64,000 nucleotides of DNA, taken from Gordonia sp. X0973 (GTDB lineage Bacteria; Actinomycetota; Actinomycetes; Mycobacteriales; Mycobacteriaceae). Shown here one piece after another: positions 1,574 through 55,453 of this stretch. Below the pieces are notes generated by a model. It had not been told where the DNA came from. It did no database searches and worked only from the letters and a program-made list of their open reading frames with translations. The number at the start of each line of letters is the position of its first letter. Position 1 is the first letter of the stretch. Location: contig NZ_CP054691.1 of assembly GCF_013348785.1 (NCBI RefSeq), forward strand, positions 62,001-126,000. Reading direction: 5' to 3'. The translations under genes were made by a program, and so were the position numbers.

Positions 1574-1580
1574 GTAGGGG

Positions 1581-1613
1581 CTGCCCACTCGGTGTGCTTG
1601 GGGTGCCCAGTCG
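1581..1613 (-). repeat. 22-bp-pitch intergenic repeat, locus A (two cores)
   Basis: Between the converging stops at 1573 and 1623 the minus strand carries CGACTGGGCACC starting at 1613 and CGAGTGGGCA starting at 1591, exactly 22 bases apart. The same core at the same pitch recurs at 12373-12460 and 55354-55453. As at the other sites, it lies directly downstream of a stop codon, here that of the S4 gene. Confidence 0.8.
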
Positions 1614-1622
1614 GCGGGAGGG

Positions 1623-1841
1623 TCAGGGGCGCGGGGCGCGGACGATCGCGCTGTGCTGGGTGAACTCCACGACGTCGCCGTCGACCAGCTGGCGGCCCCG
1701 GCGCGTCTCGACATCCCCGTTCACGCGGACCAGCCCGTCGCCGATCACGGCTTTCGCATCGGACCCGGAATCGATCAGATTCGCGAGTTTCAGGAACTGC
1801 CCGAGGCGGATCGAGTCGGTATCAATGGGGACTTCGTCCAT
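1623..1841 (-). CDS. Small S4-domain RNA-binding protein
   Basis: The 72-residue protein is essentially one S4 RNA-binding domain: IRLGQFLKLANLIDSGSDAK, then VRVNGDVETRRGRQLVDGDVV. It resembles YaaA/RlbA-type small S4 proteins, which bind structured RNA such as rRNA or tRNA fragments. The ATG at 1841 is preceded by TAGACT six bases upstream, suggesting a leaderless mRNA. It is transcribed away from lysX and is probably monocistronic. Confidence 0.8.
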   Translation of the reverse strand: MDEVPIDTDSIRLGQFLKLANLIDSGSDAKAVIGDGLVRVNGDVETRRGRQLVDGDVVEFTQHSAIVRAPRP

Positions 1842-4900: not shown

Positions 4901-5299
4901 GCCGAACTGTACGAGCACTTCGGCGAGGCGCGCACCACCACGCCGGTCTTCTACTTCGACTTCCCCAGCGCCACCTCGCCGCTGACCCGACCGCACCGGG
5001 AGATCGCCGGGTTGTCCGAGCGGTGGGACCTGGTCGCGTGGGGAGTGGAACTGGGGACGGCTTACACCGAGCTGACCGACCCCGTCGAGCAGCGCCGCCG
5101 GCTCACCGAACAGTCGATGCTGGCGGCGGGCGGCGACCCCGAGGCGATGGAACTCGACGAGGATTTCCTGCAGGCGCTCGAGTACGCGATGGCCCCCACC
5201 GGCGGGCTGGGGATCGGCGTCGACCGCATCGTCATGCTCATCACGGGCAAGTCCATCCGCGAGTCACTGCCGTTCCCGCTGACGAAGCCGCAGCAATAG
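1925..5299 (+). CDS. lysX: Bifunctional lysyl-tRNA synthetase / phosphatidylglycerol lysyltransferase LysX
   Basis: At 1124 residues this matches LysX. The N-terminal third has several membrane helices and is followed by a DUF2156/MprF-like aminoacyl-transfer domain (about residues 270-560). A class II LysRS follows: the OB-fold anticodon domain starts near residue 687 ([13 protein letters not shown]), motif 2 is near 870 ([20 protein letters not shown]) and motif 3 near 1093 ([13 protein letters not shown]). The enzyme charges tRNA-Lys and transfers lysine to phosphatidylglycerol, which lowers negative membrane charge and gives resistance to cationic peptides. The GTG start at 1925 precedes MTATMP; no strong ribosome site is visible. 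All catalytic motifs look intact. Confidence 0.95.
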
Positions 5300-5359
5300 G
5301 CCGCAGTGCTCGGGCGAACCGGGTTACCCGGCGGTAGCACAGTGGTGGGGGCCACTGGT

Positions 5360-5365
5360 TAGGAT
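5360..5365 (+). promoter_or_regulatory. -10 box of rraA (leaderless)
   Basis: TAGGAT ends seven bases before the ATG at 5373 and no Shine-Dalgarno sequence intervenes. Confidence 0.55.
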
Positions 5366-5372
5366 TCACTAC

Positions 5373-5861
5373 ATGAGCATCCCCGACTTTGTGGCCACCG
5401 CCGACCTCGTCGACGAAATCGGCGACGACGTGCGCAGTTGCGACACGCAGTTCCGCCGCTTCGGCAAGCACGAGACCTTCGTCGGGCGCGTCACGACGGT
5501 CCGCTGCTTCCAGGACAACGCCCTGCTCAAGGAGGTCCTCGGCGAGGACAATCCGGGTGGCGTCCTCGTCGTCGACGGCGACGCGTCGCTGCACACCGCC
5601 CTGGTCGGCGACCTCATCGCCGAGCGCGCCCGTAGCCACGGCTGGGTCGGGCTCGTCCTCAACGGCGCCGTGCGCGACGCCGCCACCATCGACGGGATGG
5701 AGATCGGCGTCAAGGCGCTGGGCACTAATCCCCGCAAATCCGCCAAGACCGGTGCCGGGGAGCGCGACGTGCCGGTCAGCTTCGGCGGCGTCACCTTCCA
5801 CCCCGGCGACCTCGTCTATTCCGACGCCGACGGCATCGTCGTCGTCACCCCCGGTTCCTGA
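5373..5861 (+). CDS. rraA: RraA-like protein (RNase E regulator / aldolase-like fold)
   Basis: The 162-residue product matches the RraA family along its length: [21 protein letters not shown] at the N terminus, the conserved GGVLVVDGD segment, the phosphate-loop GDLIAERA, and the GAVRDA motif near residue 100. In E. coli RraA binds and inhibits RNase E; some relatives are 4-hydroxy-4-methyl-2-oxoglutarate or oxaloacetate aldolases, with the GAVRD Arg and Asp as active-site residues. Both are kept here, so either role is possible. It stands just upstream of the gabD2-like gene (54-base gap) and may be co-transcribed with it. Confidence 0.88.
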
Positions 5862-7984: not shown

Positions 7985-8632
7985 ATGTCCAAAGTGCGGG
8001 TACACAACCTCTTCATCTCGCTCGACGGCTTCGCCGCCGGAGATCACGTCACCTTCGACGAGCCGATCGGCGGCGCCCGCGCGTTGTTCGGCCGGTTCGA
8101 CGGCCGGGTGATCGGCGGCGTGCACAACGTCGACGAGCCGGTGACCGTGGACCGCGCGCTGTTCAGCATGTGGGGCCAGGGGATCGGCGCGGAGATCATG
8201 GGCCGCAAGAAGTTCGGCCCGCAGACCGGGGAGTGGCCCGACGACGGCTGGCAGGGCTGGTGGGAGGACGAACCGCCCTTCCGCACCCCGGTCTTCATCA
8301 TGACGCACTACGAGCGCGAGCCCATCGAGTTCGCGAACGGCACCGTCTTCCACTTCGTGAACGGCTCCGCGCGCGAGGTGCTGGAACAGGCGAAGGCCGC
8401 CGCCGGCGGACTCGACATCCGGCTCGGCGGCGGCCCGTCGTCGGTGCGGCAATTCCTCGCCGACGACCTCGTCGACTTCCTGCACCTGGCGACCGTCCCG
8501 GTCACCCTGGGCACCGGTGTCCGCCTCTGGGACGATCTGGCCGGACTCGAGGACCGGTTCAGCATCGAATCGATCAGCACCGAGAGCGGCCTGGTCCACC
8601 AGCTCTGGAACCGTCAGTCCTCCGGCAGCTGA
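7985..8632 (+). CDS. Dihydrofolate reductase-like (RibD C-terminal domain) protein
   Basis: The 215-residue protein belongs to the DHFR/RibD-C fold family: VRVHNLFISLDGFAAGD at the start, AEIMGRKKFGP near residue 75, then a nucleotide-binding segment LDIRLGGGPSSVRQFL. Family members bind NADPH and reduce unknown small substrates; they are widespread in actinobacteria and mostly uncharacterised. Its end overlaps the convergent DUF1059 gene by 19 bases. Confidence 0.8.
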   Translation: MSKVRVHNLFISLDGFAAGDHVTFDEPIGGARALFGRFDGRVIGGVHNVDEPVTVDRALFSMWGQGIGAEIMGRKKFGPQTGEWPDDGWQGWWEDEPPFRTPVFIMTHYEREPIEFANGTVFHFVNGSAREVLEQAKAAAGGLDIRLGGGPSSVRQFLADDLVDFLHLATVPVTLGTGVRLWDDLAGLEDRFSIESISTESGLVHQLWNRQSSGS

Positions 8633-10670: not shown

Positions 10671-12356
10671 GTGAGCACGGTGGTCCGGTCTCCCGGTGAT
10701 TCTCTCCGCCCGCCGACGGGAGTGCTGCTGAGTGCTCGTGACCTCTCCGGCTGTGCCCACCGCCTTTCCCTCGACAACTCGCCCGCGGCCCGCGAACTCG
10801 GCGTCGACGTGGACGATTCCCCCGAGGTGGCGCGCCGCAAAGAAGCCGCGGTGTTGCACCGGGCGCGGGTGCGCGAGCTGCTGCGGTCCATCCACAGCGA
10901 TCAGACCTCGTCGGTCTTCGTGGCCGTCGACGAGGGACCGCGCGATCGGCGAATCGAGCAGACGCTGGCCGCCGCCGCACGAGGCGTCGGATGGATATGG
11001 AACGCGACCCTGCCCGACGACCTCGTCGGCCGGCGGCGGGGTCATGCCGAACTGCTCGTCCACGACGGCAGCGGATACATCCCGGTGATCGTCGTGAACC
11101 ACCGGGTGACCAAGCCGCTCGGCGCGTCGGCCGGCGAGGGCGAGGCGCCGCGCACCATCGTGACGAGTCCGCTGTGGGCGTGGCTGCCGATGCCCGATCC
11201 GACGCGTTCGCTGCGGCCCAACAGGCGCGATCAACAGCGACTGCAACACCTCACCGAGCTACTGGTGGCGGCCGGGCTGTCGGGTGAGCGGGGGCCGGGC
11301 CAGTGGCGCGCCGGCGTGATCGGGATGGATGCCGACTGCATCGCGGTGATCGACCTGGGGTCGATGCGGGCGGACTTCGCGGAGCTGACCGCGCAACGGC
11401 TGGCGGTCGTCGACCAGCGGGTGTCGACCGAGCCGAGCCGGATCGCGGAATGCCGCGACTGTCCGTGGTGGCCGCGCTGCGAGGCGGACCTCGTCCGGCG
11501 CGACGACGTGAGCCTCGTCGTCAACGGGATGGTCGCCGATGCGTTGCGGGACAACGGGATTGCCACGATAGCCCGGCTCGCCGCCGCCGATCCGGATGAT
11601 CCGCCGCCGCTGTGGCGGGTCGGCTCCTTCCCGGATTCGGTGGCCGCGGCGCGCTGTCACCGGACCGGGGTCGAGATGGTCCGGCGGTCGGAGAAGACCC
11701 CGGTCGCGCGGGCCGACGTCGAGGTCGACGTGGACATGGAGAGCTACGGCGAGGACGGCGCCTACCTGTGGGGCACGCTGCTCACCGACCGCACAGATCC
11801 GTCGCGACCGGTGGTCTACCGGCCGTTCGTGACGTGGCGTCCGCTGCCGACGACAGCCGAGGCGGAATCCTTCGCGGCGTTCTGGGCGTGGCTCTCCGCA
11901 GAGCGGGCGGAGGCCGAGGCGGCGGGGAAGACCTTCGCGGCGTACTGCTATTCGGAGCACGCCGAGAACCGATGGTTGCGCGGCTCCGCCGATCGCTTCG
12001 CCGGACTCCCCGGAGTGCCGTCGCGGGCCGAGGTCGAGGCGTTCATCGCGTCACCGCAGTGGGTCGACGTGTACGCGGCGGTGTCGGCGAACTTCTACTG
12101 CCCGTCGGGCAAGGGGCTCAAGCGGGTGGCGCCGGTCGCCGGATTCCATTGGCGCGACGAGGAGGCCGGGGGTGCGGCCTCGATGGACTGGTACGCGCTG
12201 GCCGTCGGGCTGGATGGATCGACCCCGGACGAGACTCAGCGCACCCGGTTGCTCCAGTACAACGAGGACGACGTCTGGGCCACCAAGATCCTGCGCGAAT
12301 GGATGGACGGCGAAGACGTCAAACGCCTCCCGACAATGCGGGAGCTGCTGGCCTAA
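10671..12356 (+). CDS. TM0106-type RecB-like nuclease
   Basis: This is a protein of about 561 residues of the TM0106 type. The N-terminal half carries a PD-(D/E)XK RecB-like nuclease core (LSARDLSGCAHRLSLDN, GHAELLVHD, ECRDCPWWPRC). The C-terminal half is an RNase H-like exonuclease (VDVDMESYGEDGAYLWG with its acidic pair, then YNEDDVWATKIL). Members are predicted DNA-processing enzymes of unknown pathway; the four-Cys cluster in the RecB part suggests an Fe-S site. I chose GTG 10671, preceded by GAAGGGGG, over an upstream TTG at 10590 that would add 27 atypical residues. It is divergent from the DUF6474 gene. The 22-bp-pitch repeat follows its stop. Confidence 0.82.
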   Translation: MSTVVRSPGDSLRPPTGVLLSARDLSGCAHRLSLDNSPAARELGVDVDDSPEVARRKEAAVLHRARVRELLRSIHSDQTSSVFVAVDEGPRDRRIEQTLAAAARGVGWIWNATLPDDLVGRRRGHAELLVHDGSGYIPVIVVNHRVTKPLGASAGEGEAPRTIVTSPLWAWLPMPDPTRSLRPNRRDQQRLQHLTELLVAAGLSGERGPGQWRAGVIGMDADCIAVIDLGSMRADFAELTAQRLAVVDQRVSTEPSRIAECRDCPWWPRCEADLVRRDDVSLVVNGMVADALRDNGIATIARLAAADPDDPPPLWRVGSFPDSVAAARCHRTGVEMVRRSEKTPVARADVEVDVDMESYGEDGAYLWGTLLTDRTDPSRPVVYRPFVTWRPLPTTAEAESFAAFWAWLSAERAEAEAAGKTFAAYCYSEHAENRWLRGSADRFAGLPGVPSRAEVEAFIASPQWVDVYAAVSANFYCPSGKGLKRVAPVAGFHWRDEEAGGAASMDWYALAVGLDGSTPDETQRTRLLQYNEDDVWATKILREWMDGEDVKRLPTMRELLA

Positions 12357-12372: not shown

Positions 12373-12460
12373 CGAGTGGGCACCCCAACCCCGTCGAGTG
12401 GGCACGTCAACCCCGCCGACTGGGCACCTCAACCCGGCCGAGCGCTGGGTCGAGTGACCG
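12373..12460 (+). repeat. 22-bp-pitch intergenic repeat, locus B (three clear cores and one decayed)
   Basis: Cores CGAGTGGGCACC, CGAGTGGGCACG and CGACTGGGCACC begin at 12373, 12395 and 12417, exactly 22 bases apart. A decayed copy (CGAGCGCTGGG) begins at 12439. The array starts 16 bases after the stop of the nuclease gene and is preceded by CCCCGCCGAGCGCCG, which also precedes locus C at 55337-55351. Confidence 0.9.
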
Positions 12461-12476
12461 CGACGAAGGAGCGGTT

Positions 12477-12597
12477 GTATCGAGACCTGGGCACTCCAAA
12501 TCCCGTCGAGAGCCTGGGTCGTATCGAGACCTGGGCACCCGGTCCAGTGGGTGTGCGGTTTCAGACACCGACGTTCTCGGGTGAGGTTCCAGACACT
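12477..12597 (+). repeat. Degenerate repeats downstream of locus B
   Basis: GTATCGAGACCTGGGCAC occurs at 12477 and again at 12521, 44 bases (2 x 22) apart, so this looks like a diverged extension of the same array. Further right GGTTTCAGACAC (12557) and GGTTCCAGACAC (12585) form a second pair of direct repeats, possibly an old mobile-element end. No gene is seen between 12357 and 12635. Confidence 0.6.
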
Positions 12598-13758: not shown

Positions 13759-14741
13759 TCAGCGGCGGATGGCGTGCAGTGCGTCGAGGAAGCGTCCGCT
13801 GCCGAGCAGCGCGAGCGTCGCCAGGCCCAGCATCGCGGCCGGTCCGTAACCCTCGGCGACCGTGCCGAAGTCACCGAGAGGTGCGGCGACGGCGGTCGGC
13901 TTGCCTGGATCCGGTGCCACCGCGGGGGCGGTGGGTGCCGGTGCGGGCCGGTTGGGTGCCGGTGCCGTGCCGGGCGCTCCAGATCCCGGGCCACCAGGGG
14001 CAGCCGGGGCACCGGGGCCGCCAGGGGCGGCGGGGCGCCGCCTGAGGGTGTGCCGGGTGCGGGTGCCGCCGGTGCGGGAGCCGCCGGTGCCGGAGCGGCA
14101 GGTGCCGGGGCAGCGGGAGGTGCGGGCGCGGCTGGCGCCGGTGGCGAGTATTGATCGGGCGTGTAGTGGTCGCCGTACCGGGTCGGGGGAAGGTCCACCG
14201 GCGGGGTACCGGCCATCGGAGGGGCGCCGCCGATGCTCGCGCCGGAGTTGGCGCCGCTGCCGGCCCCGGGAACGGTGGGAGTACCCGGCCCACCCGGTAG
14301 CGTCGGGTCGGTCCCACCCGGGTCCGAGCCAGTGCCGCTTCCGCCAGTGCCAGTCCCAGTGCCCGTGCCGCCAGTGCCCGTGCCCGTGCCGCCAGTGCCG
14401 GTGCCGGTCCCACCCGAGTCGGTGCTCGCCCCCGAGCCGGTGCCGCCAGAAGTGGTCCCACCGGTGTTGTTGCCGCCGGTGCCACCCGAGTTGTTCCCGC
14501 CGGCCCCACCGGGGTTCCAGTTGCTTCCGGGTCCACCCCCGGGCGTGCCCGTGCCCGTTCCGCCCGCTCCGAAATCGGACCCGCCGGGCGTCGAACCGAA
14601 ATCAACCGGCATCGGCGTCGCCGAGGAATCGGCGGGCGTCACGAGGAAGGCAAACGTGAAGCTCATCACACCCGCCGCCGCGAACGCGGCGGCCGTGCGC
14701 ACCGTCACCGGGGGACGGCGGAGGTTTCGCATGGACTTCAT
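13759..14741 (-). CDS. Frameshifted Pro/Gly-rich surface protein (signal peptide, repeats, C-terminal membrane anchor)
   Basis: From the ATG at 14741 the protein shows a signal-type helix (TAAAFAAAGVMSFTFAFLVT) and a Gly/Thr/Ser repeat region with many GTG steps. Next comes PPTRYGDHY, then PAPAAPAPAAP repeats. Around 14030-14045 the good frame changes: the original frame runs on into non-biological sequence, while the next frame resumes APNRPAPAP and ends GPAAMLGLATLALLGSGRFL, a membrane anchor with basic tail, stopping at 13759. One base is missing relative to an intact frame of about 327 codons. This is either a sequencing error in a G/C run or a real inactivation or phase-variation site. 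Likely a wall-spanning surface protein of unknown role. Confidence 0.6.
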
Positions 14742-27804: not shown

Positions 27805-28179
27805 CAGTACTCCTCGGTCGGGGATCGGACAACCCGTACCGTACCGGACGGGCCGCCAGAGTTGTCCACAAGTTATCCACAGGCGCTATGCGCTTTGTCG
27901 AGCCGGACAAAAACTCCAGCGTGAAATTCACGATACTTCGAGAAAACGCGACGAAATTTCGTGAATATGTGGCGCCGTTCACAATTGGGGCCATTTTGTG
28001 CCCATCCCTGGTTAAGGCCGGTTCACTGTCCTGTATCGGCCCGGCGAGGTGATCAGGGGCGGTCCGAGGAGTTATGCCCGGCCACTGTGGATATCTTTCC
28101 GACCCGTCCCGGTGGCCTGGGCGAACCGATCGGCAGACGTTGGCCACCTGCGCTCGTCGTCATATGCCACCATGGACTC
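27805..28179. other. 375-base divergent intergenic region, partly A/T-rich
   Basis: Between the SRPBCC gene (minus) and the rhodanese gene (plus). It holds two DnaA-box-like sites (27862-27881). It also holds an A/T-rich stretch at about 27905-27990 with ATTCACGA and TCGTGAAT in opposite orientation. No convincing gene is present. Confidence 0.6.
27862..27881 (+). other. Two adjacent DnaA-box-like sites
   Basis: TTGTCCACA (27862-27870) and TTATCCACA (27873-27881) are both good matches to DnaA boxes, 11 bases apart, one helical turn. They are followed within 25 bases by an A/T-rich stretch. No dnaA or dnaN gene is near, so this is more likely a DnaA-regulated promoter or titration site than an origin. 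Confidence 0.6.
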
Positions 28180-37889: not shown

Positions 37890-37947
37890 CGGGCCGGTTC
37901 CTTTCGCGGTCGCGGGCGATGCCGCGCGCAGGCGGCATCGAACTGAA

Positions 37948-38010
37948 CCAGGAACTATCAGCCGTGTGGCGGTTCGGGCGACCGGCGCCCCGGCGAGATC
38001 CATCGCCGTG
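37948..38010 (-). promoter_or_regulatory. Fluoride riboswitch (crcB motif)
   Basis: The minus-strand leader of crcB contains GGCGATGGATCTCGCC, then AACCGCCACACGGCTGAT and AGTTCCTGG. This order and these conserved bases (GGCGAUGG...CGCC, AACCGCC, GGCUGAU, CCU) match the known fluoride-sensing crcB aptamer with its pseudoknot. It ends about 60 bases before the ATG at 37889; that space contains GATGCCGCCTGC and GCGCGCGGCATC, which can pair as an expression-platform hairpin. Confidence 0.85.
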
Positions 38011-38025
38011 TCCTTCAACGCAGCC

Positions 38026-54449: not shown

Positions 54450-55330
54450 CGGGAGTACCTCAGGGCCCCCTCGTGTCGGGTGGGCGCCCGTCGCTCATCG
54501 CCAGCGACGTGGACGGGACGCTGCTCGACGACCAGAACCGGATCACCGACGCGACGGTGGAGGCGATCACCCGCGCCTCTCGCGCCGGCGTCGACCTGGT
54601 GTTGGCGACCGGGCGGCCACCGCGGTGGATCGCCGAGGTCACCAATCAACTGCCCGTCCCCGACGACCTGCTGTCCGTGCGCCCGGGCGGCACCCTGGTG
54701 CGATACGCGGTCTGCGCGAACGGGGCCATCGTCTACGACGTGGAGAACGACCGGATCCTGGACGCCGTGCAACTGGACGTCCCGCGGTTGCGCAAGCTGA
54801 TCTCGGTCGTCGAGGAGCTGTTGCCCCAGGCCGGGCTGGCCGCCGAACGCGTCGGAGTCTCGGCCCACGACGCCGCGACCCGGCCCTTCGTCGCCACCGC
54901 CGGATACGAGCATGCGTGGCTGAACCCCGACCACGAACTCGTCGACGATGCCGACCTCGGCGAGGCGCCAGCCGTCAAACTGCTGGCGCGCGCCCCGCAG
55001 ATGCGCAGCGAGGACATGGCCGCGCTCCTGGTCCCGGCCGTCGGGGATCTGGCCGAGGTCACCTTCTCCACGTCGAACGGGCTGATTGAGCTGTCGGTGC
55101 CGAATACGCACAAGGCCGCCGGGCTGGCGCGGCTGGCCGGGCTGACCGGGTTGCCCGCCGACGCCGTCATCGCCTTCGGCGACATGCCCAACGACGTCGA
55201 GATGCTCCGATGGGCAACCCACGGAGCCGCGATGGCGCACGGACATCCGGAGGCGATCGCCGCCGCCGACGAGGTGGCGCCGACGAACAACGACGACGGT
55301 GTGGCGACGGTCCTGAGCCGCTTCTTCTGA
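54446..55330 (+). CDS. HAD-superfamily phosphatase (Cof type)
   Basis: The 294-residue protein has DVDGTLLDD near residue 20 (nucleophile Asp), LATGRPPRWI (motif II) and AFGDMPNDVEML (motif IV), with a Cof-type cap between. It dephosphorylates small phosphorylated molecules; the substrate is unknown. It corresponds to Rv3813c, which also adjoins acyltransferase genes. It is translationally coupled to the second acyltransferase, which hints at a lipid-phosphate substrate. Confidence 0.9.
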   Translation: MTGVPQGPLVSGGRPSLIASDVDGTLLDDQNRITDATVEAITRASRAGVDLVLATGRPPRWIAEVTNQLPVPDDLLSVRPGGTLVRYAVCANGAIVYDVENDRILDAVQLDVPRLRKLISVVEELLPQAGLAAERVGVSAHDAATRPFVATAGYEHAWLNPDHELVDDADLGEAPAVKLLARAPQMRSEDMAALLVPAVGDLAEVTFSTSNGLIELSVPNTHKAAGLARLAGLTGLPADAVIAFGDMPNDVEMLRWATHGAAMAHGHPEAIAAADEVAPTNNDDGVATVLSRFF

Positions 55331-55353: not shown

Positions 55354-55453
55354 CGAGTGGGCACCCCAACCCCGCCGACTGGGCACCTCAACCCCGCCGA
55401 CTGGGCACCCAAAGTGCGCCGACTGGGCACCCCACGTACATCGAGTGGGCACC
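55354..55453 (+). repeat. 22-bp-pitch intergenic repeat, locus C (five cores)
   Basis: Five cores of CGASTGGGCACC begin at 55354, 55376, 55398, 55420 and 55442, each exactly 22 bases apart. The first two are followed by near-identical 10-base tails (CCAACCCCGC and TCAACCCCGC) and the other tails differ. It starts 23 bases after the HAD stop. The stretch just before it (CCCCGCCGAGCGCCG) is shared with locus B. Confidence 0.92.

Follow-up and report, generated by a model that had tools for sequence, protein, structure and literature searches.

Arrays of direct repeats at two-turn pitch behind genes of Gordonia and related genera, possible docking rows for a DNA-binding protein

Three short arrays of repeated units lie behind genes in the window, a stretch of 64,000 nucleotides from Gordonia sp. 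X0973 (C1:62001-126000 of the genome that we call G000). All ten cores reported in an earlier note on this DNA were recovered where it had put them, and the pitch of 22 bp that it gave holds at all three loci (Table 1). Eight of the ten cores match CGASTGGGCACC exactly, and those at 12395 and 1580 each differ by one base. According to the note, all arrays begin 10-25 bases after a stop codon; this is nearly right, array C starting just short of that range. Taken by itself, with up to two mismatches allowed, the core occurs in the window no more often than chance would give (26 found against 29 expected); it is the recurrence at 22-bp pitch that exceeds chance.

Table 1. Arrays, the genes that precede them and an adjoining repeat. 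Genes are from our own prediction; names in quotation marks are labels of the earlier note only.
Feature	Position	Strand	Remarks
Array A, five units at 22-bp pitch	55354..55453	+	cores at 55354, 55376, 55398, 55420 and 55442, all five exact; 23 nt beyond the upstream gene's stop
Predicted gene before array A	54473..55330	+	"HAD"
Array B, three units at 22-bp pitch	12373..12428	+	cores at 12373, 12395 and 12417, first and third exact, second with one mismatch; 16 nt beyond the stop
Predicted gene before array B	10722..12356	+	"RecB-like"
Array C, two units at 22-bp pitch	1580..1613	-	cores at 1602-1613 (first, exact) and 1580-1591 (second, one mismatch); 9 nt beyond the minus-strand gene's stop; between convergent genes
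Predicted gene before array C	1623..1841	-	"S4"
REP-like imperfect hairpin repeat	12448..12487	+	GGTCGAGTG...GTATCGAGACC; just behind array B

Loci B and C share the leading CCCCGCCGAGCGCCG, as had been claimed, and this element resembles the left end of the separate REP-like hairpin repeat. Seven other arrays of the same genome (L118, L119, L130, twice in L135, L140 and L141) have the hairpin repeat (GGTCGAGTGACCGCGACGAAGGAGCGGTYGTATCGAGACC) fused to their first core, and in Gordonia araii it occurs as a 40-bp tandem repeat too (L306). Elsewhere in the window we observed a fluoride riboswitch (RF01734) at 37942-38016 on the minus strand, scoring 35 bits against a gathering score of 34, and dense short GC-rich repeats with periods of 6 to 27 bp at 13925-14571. 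A doublet of AGTTATCCACA, which resembles DnaA boxes, occupies 27860-27881, and a replication origin may lie near it.

Across the 3.75 Mb of G000 we counted 164 pairs of cores at 22-bp pitch (83 and 81, with at most two mismatches) against none in the reversed control, and the stretches fetched from this genome hold 47-49 arrays. In four core sets, drawn from G000, from G. araii with the metagenome-assembled genome UBA5067, and from a further Gordonia genome (G009), each array is built like a fence, with n sites and n-1 spacers. The CGC ahead of the first core is kept at 78-100% per base, the likeness between units drops after core position 11-12 of the last site, and the array ends coincide with a site boundary in all four core families. 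The repeated site is thus ~14-15 bp long, begins with CGC-CGAS and is sharp at both array ends, and the loose spacer measures ~6-7 bp; comparing each spacer of G000 with its neighbour gave 259 substitutions over 85 pairs. Arrays contain 2 to 11 units. The core varies across species (TGGGCACC, TGGGCCCT, YGTGCCC and others) in a constant frame: the type A site is CGC + CGASTGGGCACC (CGY + CGASTGGGCACC in the window genome), type B is CGC + CGASYGTGCCC and type C is CGC + CGASTGGGCCCT. G000 has type A, G. araii types A and B, and G009 type C. Core position 4 is G or C in 550 of the 551 sites counted for types A and C, which might have been read as a sign of minor-groove contact; strict G/C at this position fails in type B (12 T of 120) and in the genus g18 (8 A of 74), and the simple minor-groove argument is weakened by these exceptions.

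The spacing of neighbouring cores, scored between 15 and 30 bp, is 22 in 336, 21 in 211 and another value in only 3 of 550 cases, in a sample where most loci had been fetched with fixed-pitch patterns and some overlapping stretches of g18, g16 and UBA5067 were counted twice. Pitch is tied to the type of core even inside one genome: in G. araii, type A cores are spaced by 22 bp in 69 of 70 cases and type B cores by 21 bp in 86 of 86. In G000, 5 of 133 spacings depart from 22. A search with variable spacing returned the same four of 59 Gordonia genomes as the exact type A pair (see below), with spacings that were nearly all 22 among the matches listed. A scan for non-coding repeats of period 13-40, with no core specified, covered 377 kb of four array-bearing genomes and gave 19 arrays, 13 of which have a period of 21 or 22; in two array-free Gordonia (400 kb, 200 kb each) none of 12 arrays has such a period. 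We also observed one g18 array with alternating 22- and 21-bp spacing (G159:C1:420060-420176), and arrays at two loci of the genome G040 (L177 and L178) with the core CGASTGGGCC(C) mostly at 22-bp pitch, a similar core being spaced at 21 bp in G009.

The exact type A pair was found in four of 59 Gordonia genomes, with 115 occurrences in G000, 192 in G. araii (G006), 44 in UBA5067 (G010) and 3 in G009; among the matches listed (80 of 83 stretches), all were from Gordonia araii NBRC 100433 or UBA5067. A looser 22-bp triplet pattern matched 12 of 401 genomes of the family, namely G000, G. araii, all eight of genus g18 and, with one match each, G118 and G330, against 7 matches in four genomes for its reversed controls. 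Pairs at 21 bp were abundant in G009 (452) and G. araii (307), and occurred in six g18 genomes (15-126), in G073 of genus g16 (70) and in three of four g10 genomes (56-93, the g10 genome G096 having 5), with 3 in G000; the controls of this search sum to 6, and G014 and G079 gave only 1 match or control matches. Triplets at either pitch occurred in 33 of the 401 genomes, against 2 matches in reversed controls: 13 of 53 Gordonia, several of them with one match only, 8 of 9 g10, the one g16, 8 of 8 g18, and three singles (G375, G314 and G206) that we took as chance or coding matches. Related array families at 21- or 22-bp pitch are therefore present in other Gordonia and in three further genera. 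A loose-spacing search over 70 genomes returned 14 with matches, several of which looked coding or irregular by eye; those in G073, G096 and G075 were taken as real arrays. Spread outside the family was considered and dropped: 5 of 394 genomes in a sample of the class matched, G000 among them, and the other four had only 1-2 matches each, by eye coding or other repeats. In a one-gene tree, G000, G. araii, G009, UBA5067 and G040 form one clade (100/100), the branching inside it being mostly unresolved.

The preference for gene 3' ends that the earlier note had proposed was borne out by the position of arrays relative to stops and convergent gaps, with genes predicted by our own codon-pair script and boundaries that are approximate. 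In G000 we sorted the 41 arrays that have two or more exact units: 22 occupy convergent gaps, 10 are tandem and sense, 3 tandem and antisense, 4 divergent and 2 in an ORF, the gene pairs of the same stretches being 236 tandem, 60 convergent and 63 divergent (convergent 60/359). The arrays of G. araii and UBA5067 (n=83) comprise 45 convergent, 19 tandem sense, 10 antisense, 5 divergent, 2 inside an ORF and 2 at an edge. The first core falls within 30 nt of a codirectional stop, overlaps included, in 23 of 32 cases in G000 and 52 of 64 in these two relatives, and the array fills the convergent gap to within 30 nt on both sides in 12 of 23 such gaps of G000 and 37 of 50 of relatives. Pooling 189 arrays from five sets and both pitches gave 97 convergent, 43 tandem sense, 23 tandem antisense, 19 divergent, 5 inside predicted ORFs and 2 at an edge; the sense bias of the tandem arrays differs from an even split at a two-sided p of 0.019. 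Wherever two arrays oppose each other with no gene between them, they face each other (19 of 19). In the other genera, a codirectional gene lies 5' of 11 of the 14 g18 arrays displayed, 9 of these genes ending within 30 nt, and 5' of 6 of 7 arrays in G073 (g16), only 2 within 30 nt. Two sense arrays, L115:5001-5078 and 8232-8287, were observed inside one predicted ORF of 1367 codons with the reading frame unbroken. The observation survived the refuting check that the earlier note had named: a core at chance level, random spacing and no preference for gene 3' ends.

We compared sites between species. For 18 of the 49 arrays of G000 with at least two units, G. araii or UBA5067 carries an array of like direction at the orthologous position; the cases were picked by hand, and absence is under-counted because the relatives' loci were fetched for carrying arrays. 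At L129 the array is clearly absent from G. araii. Over 22 orthologous array pairs the cores are 94% alike, in part because the arrays were found by their cores, a circumstance from which site and direction are independent; the spacers are 60% alike, against 59% for unrelated arrays (368 of 2000 shuffles were as high). Array A has a counterpart in UBA5067, and in G009 an array with a different core and a pitch of 21 bp lies behind the orthologue of the gene that precedes array B. In G. araii, none of the three window arrays was found at a trustworthy orthologue, a match beside array C being discounted at only 28% identity; the CGAGTCCCCGC that G. araii keeps at site A could be a collapsed unit. 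The genes located by tblastn numbered 50 in G. araii, 49 in G009, 26 in UBA5067 and 11 in G040, and arrays were present behind 3, 1, 2 and 0 of them, respectively. For 18 arrays of G009 at 21-bp pitch, the G. araii and UBA5067 set held an orthologous stretch for 16, with an array nearby in 12, and the G000 set held one for 8, with an array nearby in 4; for 33 such arrays of G. araii, the G000 set held one for 11, with an array nearby in 7. "Nearby" here means within 250 nt plus the gap, so that some of the arrays counted are adjacent or opposing ones and do not occupy the identical site. Some shared sites differ in both core and pitch between species.

The explanation that we favour, though tentatively, is that the arrays are docking rows at gene ends for a putative protein that binds DNA sequence-specifically and probably prevents read-through. 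Each site of ~14-15 bp would bind one such protein, and the distance of two helical turns between sites, 21 or 22 bp, would align the bound proteins on one face of the DNA. A row behind stops, mostly directed with the gene and above all between convergent genes, would most likely prevent transcription from entering the neighbouring gene, as a directional barrier or an insulator, and the core would coevolve with its reader protein, giving rise to species dialects. We infer such a protein and its attachment to double-stranded DNA from the 164 pairs against none in the control, the pitch tied to core type, the sharp site ends, the convergent and facing placement, the persistence of sites, some of them with changed core and pitch, and the ordinary folding of the RNA (see below); a stop or insulation by the bound row is suggested by place and direction. 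The two-turn arrangement, already put forward in the earlier note, gains indirect support from families with different cores that keep to 21 or 22 bp, from the sharp ends and from sites that persist when spacers do not. Against docking we counted that most Gordonia sampled are without arrays, that G. araii lacks the three window arrays at trustworthy orthologues, that antisense tandem arrays are not rare, and that arrays occur in divergent gaps and inside predicted ORFs. No trade-off with known terminators is visible either, since terminator-like sites are equally rare with and without arrays.

The main rival, which stays strong and which we regard as a serious if somewhat less probable reading, is a selfish dispersed repeat, non-palindromic and REP-like: a recombinase or transposase not yet known would recognise the core and copy units, arrays would be left where they do least harm, behind stops, and the dialects would be successive invading families. 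The replacement of array families between close species, the arrays inside ORFs and the restriction of triplets to 13 of 53 Gordonia all fit this account, and gaps behind genes are also a typical REP location (PMC3733652). It is set back by the ordered direction of the arrays, with every opposing pair facing, and by the 18 same-direction orthologous partners. Nor was PF01797, the REP/IS200 transposase, found in any of 22 genomes, 13 of them array-bearing, although the same search was positive in 5 of 14 control genomes; on this result and the ordinary RNA folds we rejected membership of the REP/RAYT group. The arrays may be mobile, as the earlier note had entertained, though the known REP transposase family is absent from the genomes searched. 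A phage origin was rejected, as the type A pair had no exact match in a collection of viral contigs searched with the type A core only.

We consider it improbable that the arrays act as an RNA-level signal, in which the transcribed array would be a Rho loading site or the target of an RNA-binding or RNA-cleaving protein and the transcript would end or be trimmed there. Sense placement behind stops, the convergent preference and the facing pairs would suit any end signal of the sense strand, and the sense strands of arrays contain more C than do the 60 nt that follow other stops. The excess is mild, however (C 0.402 and G 0.308, against C 0.343 and G 0.320), seven array stretches, with z between -1.22 and 0.79, folded no better than shuffled sequences, antisense tandem arrays number 23, and an RNA signal would presumably not demand a spacing limited to 21-22 bp. 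Because the folds are ordinary and the C-richness mild, phased binding of protein to double-stranded DNA fits better. Neutral tandem repeats born of replication slippage and tolerated in intergenic gaps are very improbable: the varying unit number and the alternating spacers, for example at L126 and L138, which resemble duplicated 44-bp blocks, would suit them, but slippage at dozens of unrelated places would not yield one core, pitch and direction rule with the same sharp edges, nor would it leave cores alike but spacers dissimilar where sites are shared, and the two scanned array-free Gordonia had no 21/22-bp non-coding arrays in 200 kb each. Two further readings were rejected. For a replacement of intrinsic terminators, taken as a GC-rich hairpin and a T run, no difference was seen between gaps with and without arrays (5/23 and 4/35 in G000, 6/50 and 14/120 in the relatives). 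As for tRNA ends, ARAGORN run on ten loci placed tRNAs in L128 only (5217-5615, downstream side), beside a minus-strand array at 5001-5056.

Among known systems, REP and BIME elements with their RAYT transposases are dispersed extragenic repeats behind genes (PMC2817692, PMC3733652). The arrays resemble them in being numerous, dispersed and extragenic, in lying in gaps behind genes, convergent ones included, and in forming species-specific families; they differ in that their units run head to tail, always two turns apart, and that the genomes searched lack a RAYT-family transposase. REPs are also told by hairpins and alternating orientation, whereas the array units are not palindromic, their core has no full dyad by eye, and only whole arrays oppose each other. 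Plasmid iterons are direct repeats of ~17-22 bp at helical pitch, bound by Rep initiators on one DNA face at a replication origin. The arrays likewise repeat directly at a helical pitch, 547 of 550 spacings being 21 or 22 bp, but are scattered over dozens of chromosomal gene ends and not placed at a replication origin. In place and abundance they are like REPs, in their phased direct repeats like iterons, and a defining feature of each that we tested is absent from them. In eukaryotes, the Sal-box repeats, to which TTF-I binds, exemplify roadblock terminators, directional sites behind a gene that are thought to halt the polymerase; the arrays too are repeated directional sites behind a gene, here in a bacterial host and with a putative protein and halt. 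Mycobacterial MIRUs are likewise intergenic actinobacterial repeats near stop codons, and are set apart by unit length, roughly 50-100 bp against 21-22 bp; other mycobacterial intergenic motifs of similar look are known. DNA uptake sequences also have a short core that comes in lineage-specific dialects and is often found at gene ends, but are single copies genome-wide, in contrast to fixed-pitch rows at tens of loci. No description of the arrays was found in the open-licence literature, as covered by titles, abstract openings and part of the matches, which does not establish their absence from print.

Should the arrays prove to be selfish, they would represent a family of repeats that are not palindromic and lack the known REP transposase. 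Should they be docking rows, a wider proposal follows that we put forward as rather unlikely in its full form: several genera of the Mycobacteriaceae (in the sense of GTDB) would mark selected, chiefly convergent, gene ends with a dedicated protein and coevolving rows, a bacterial counterpart of the eukaryotic roadblock terminators, and dialects would switch core and pitch, from 22 to 21 bp, genome-wide with many of the marked genes unchanged. Hairpin terminators are scarce in the convergent gaps scanned, array-free ones included, and how neighbouring genes stay separated therefore becomes the question. Countable, species-variable arrays at gene ends make this separation testable, as they predict a binding protein, a rule of helical phase and a direction.
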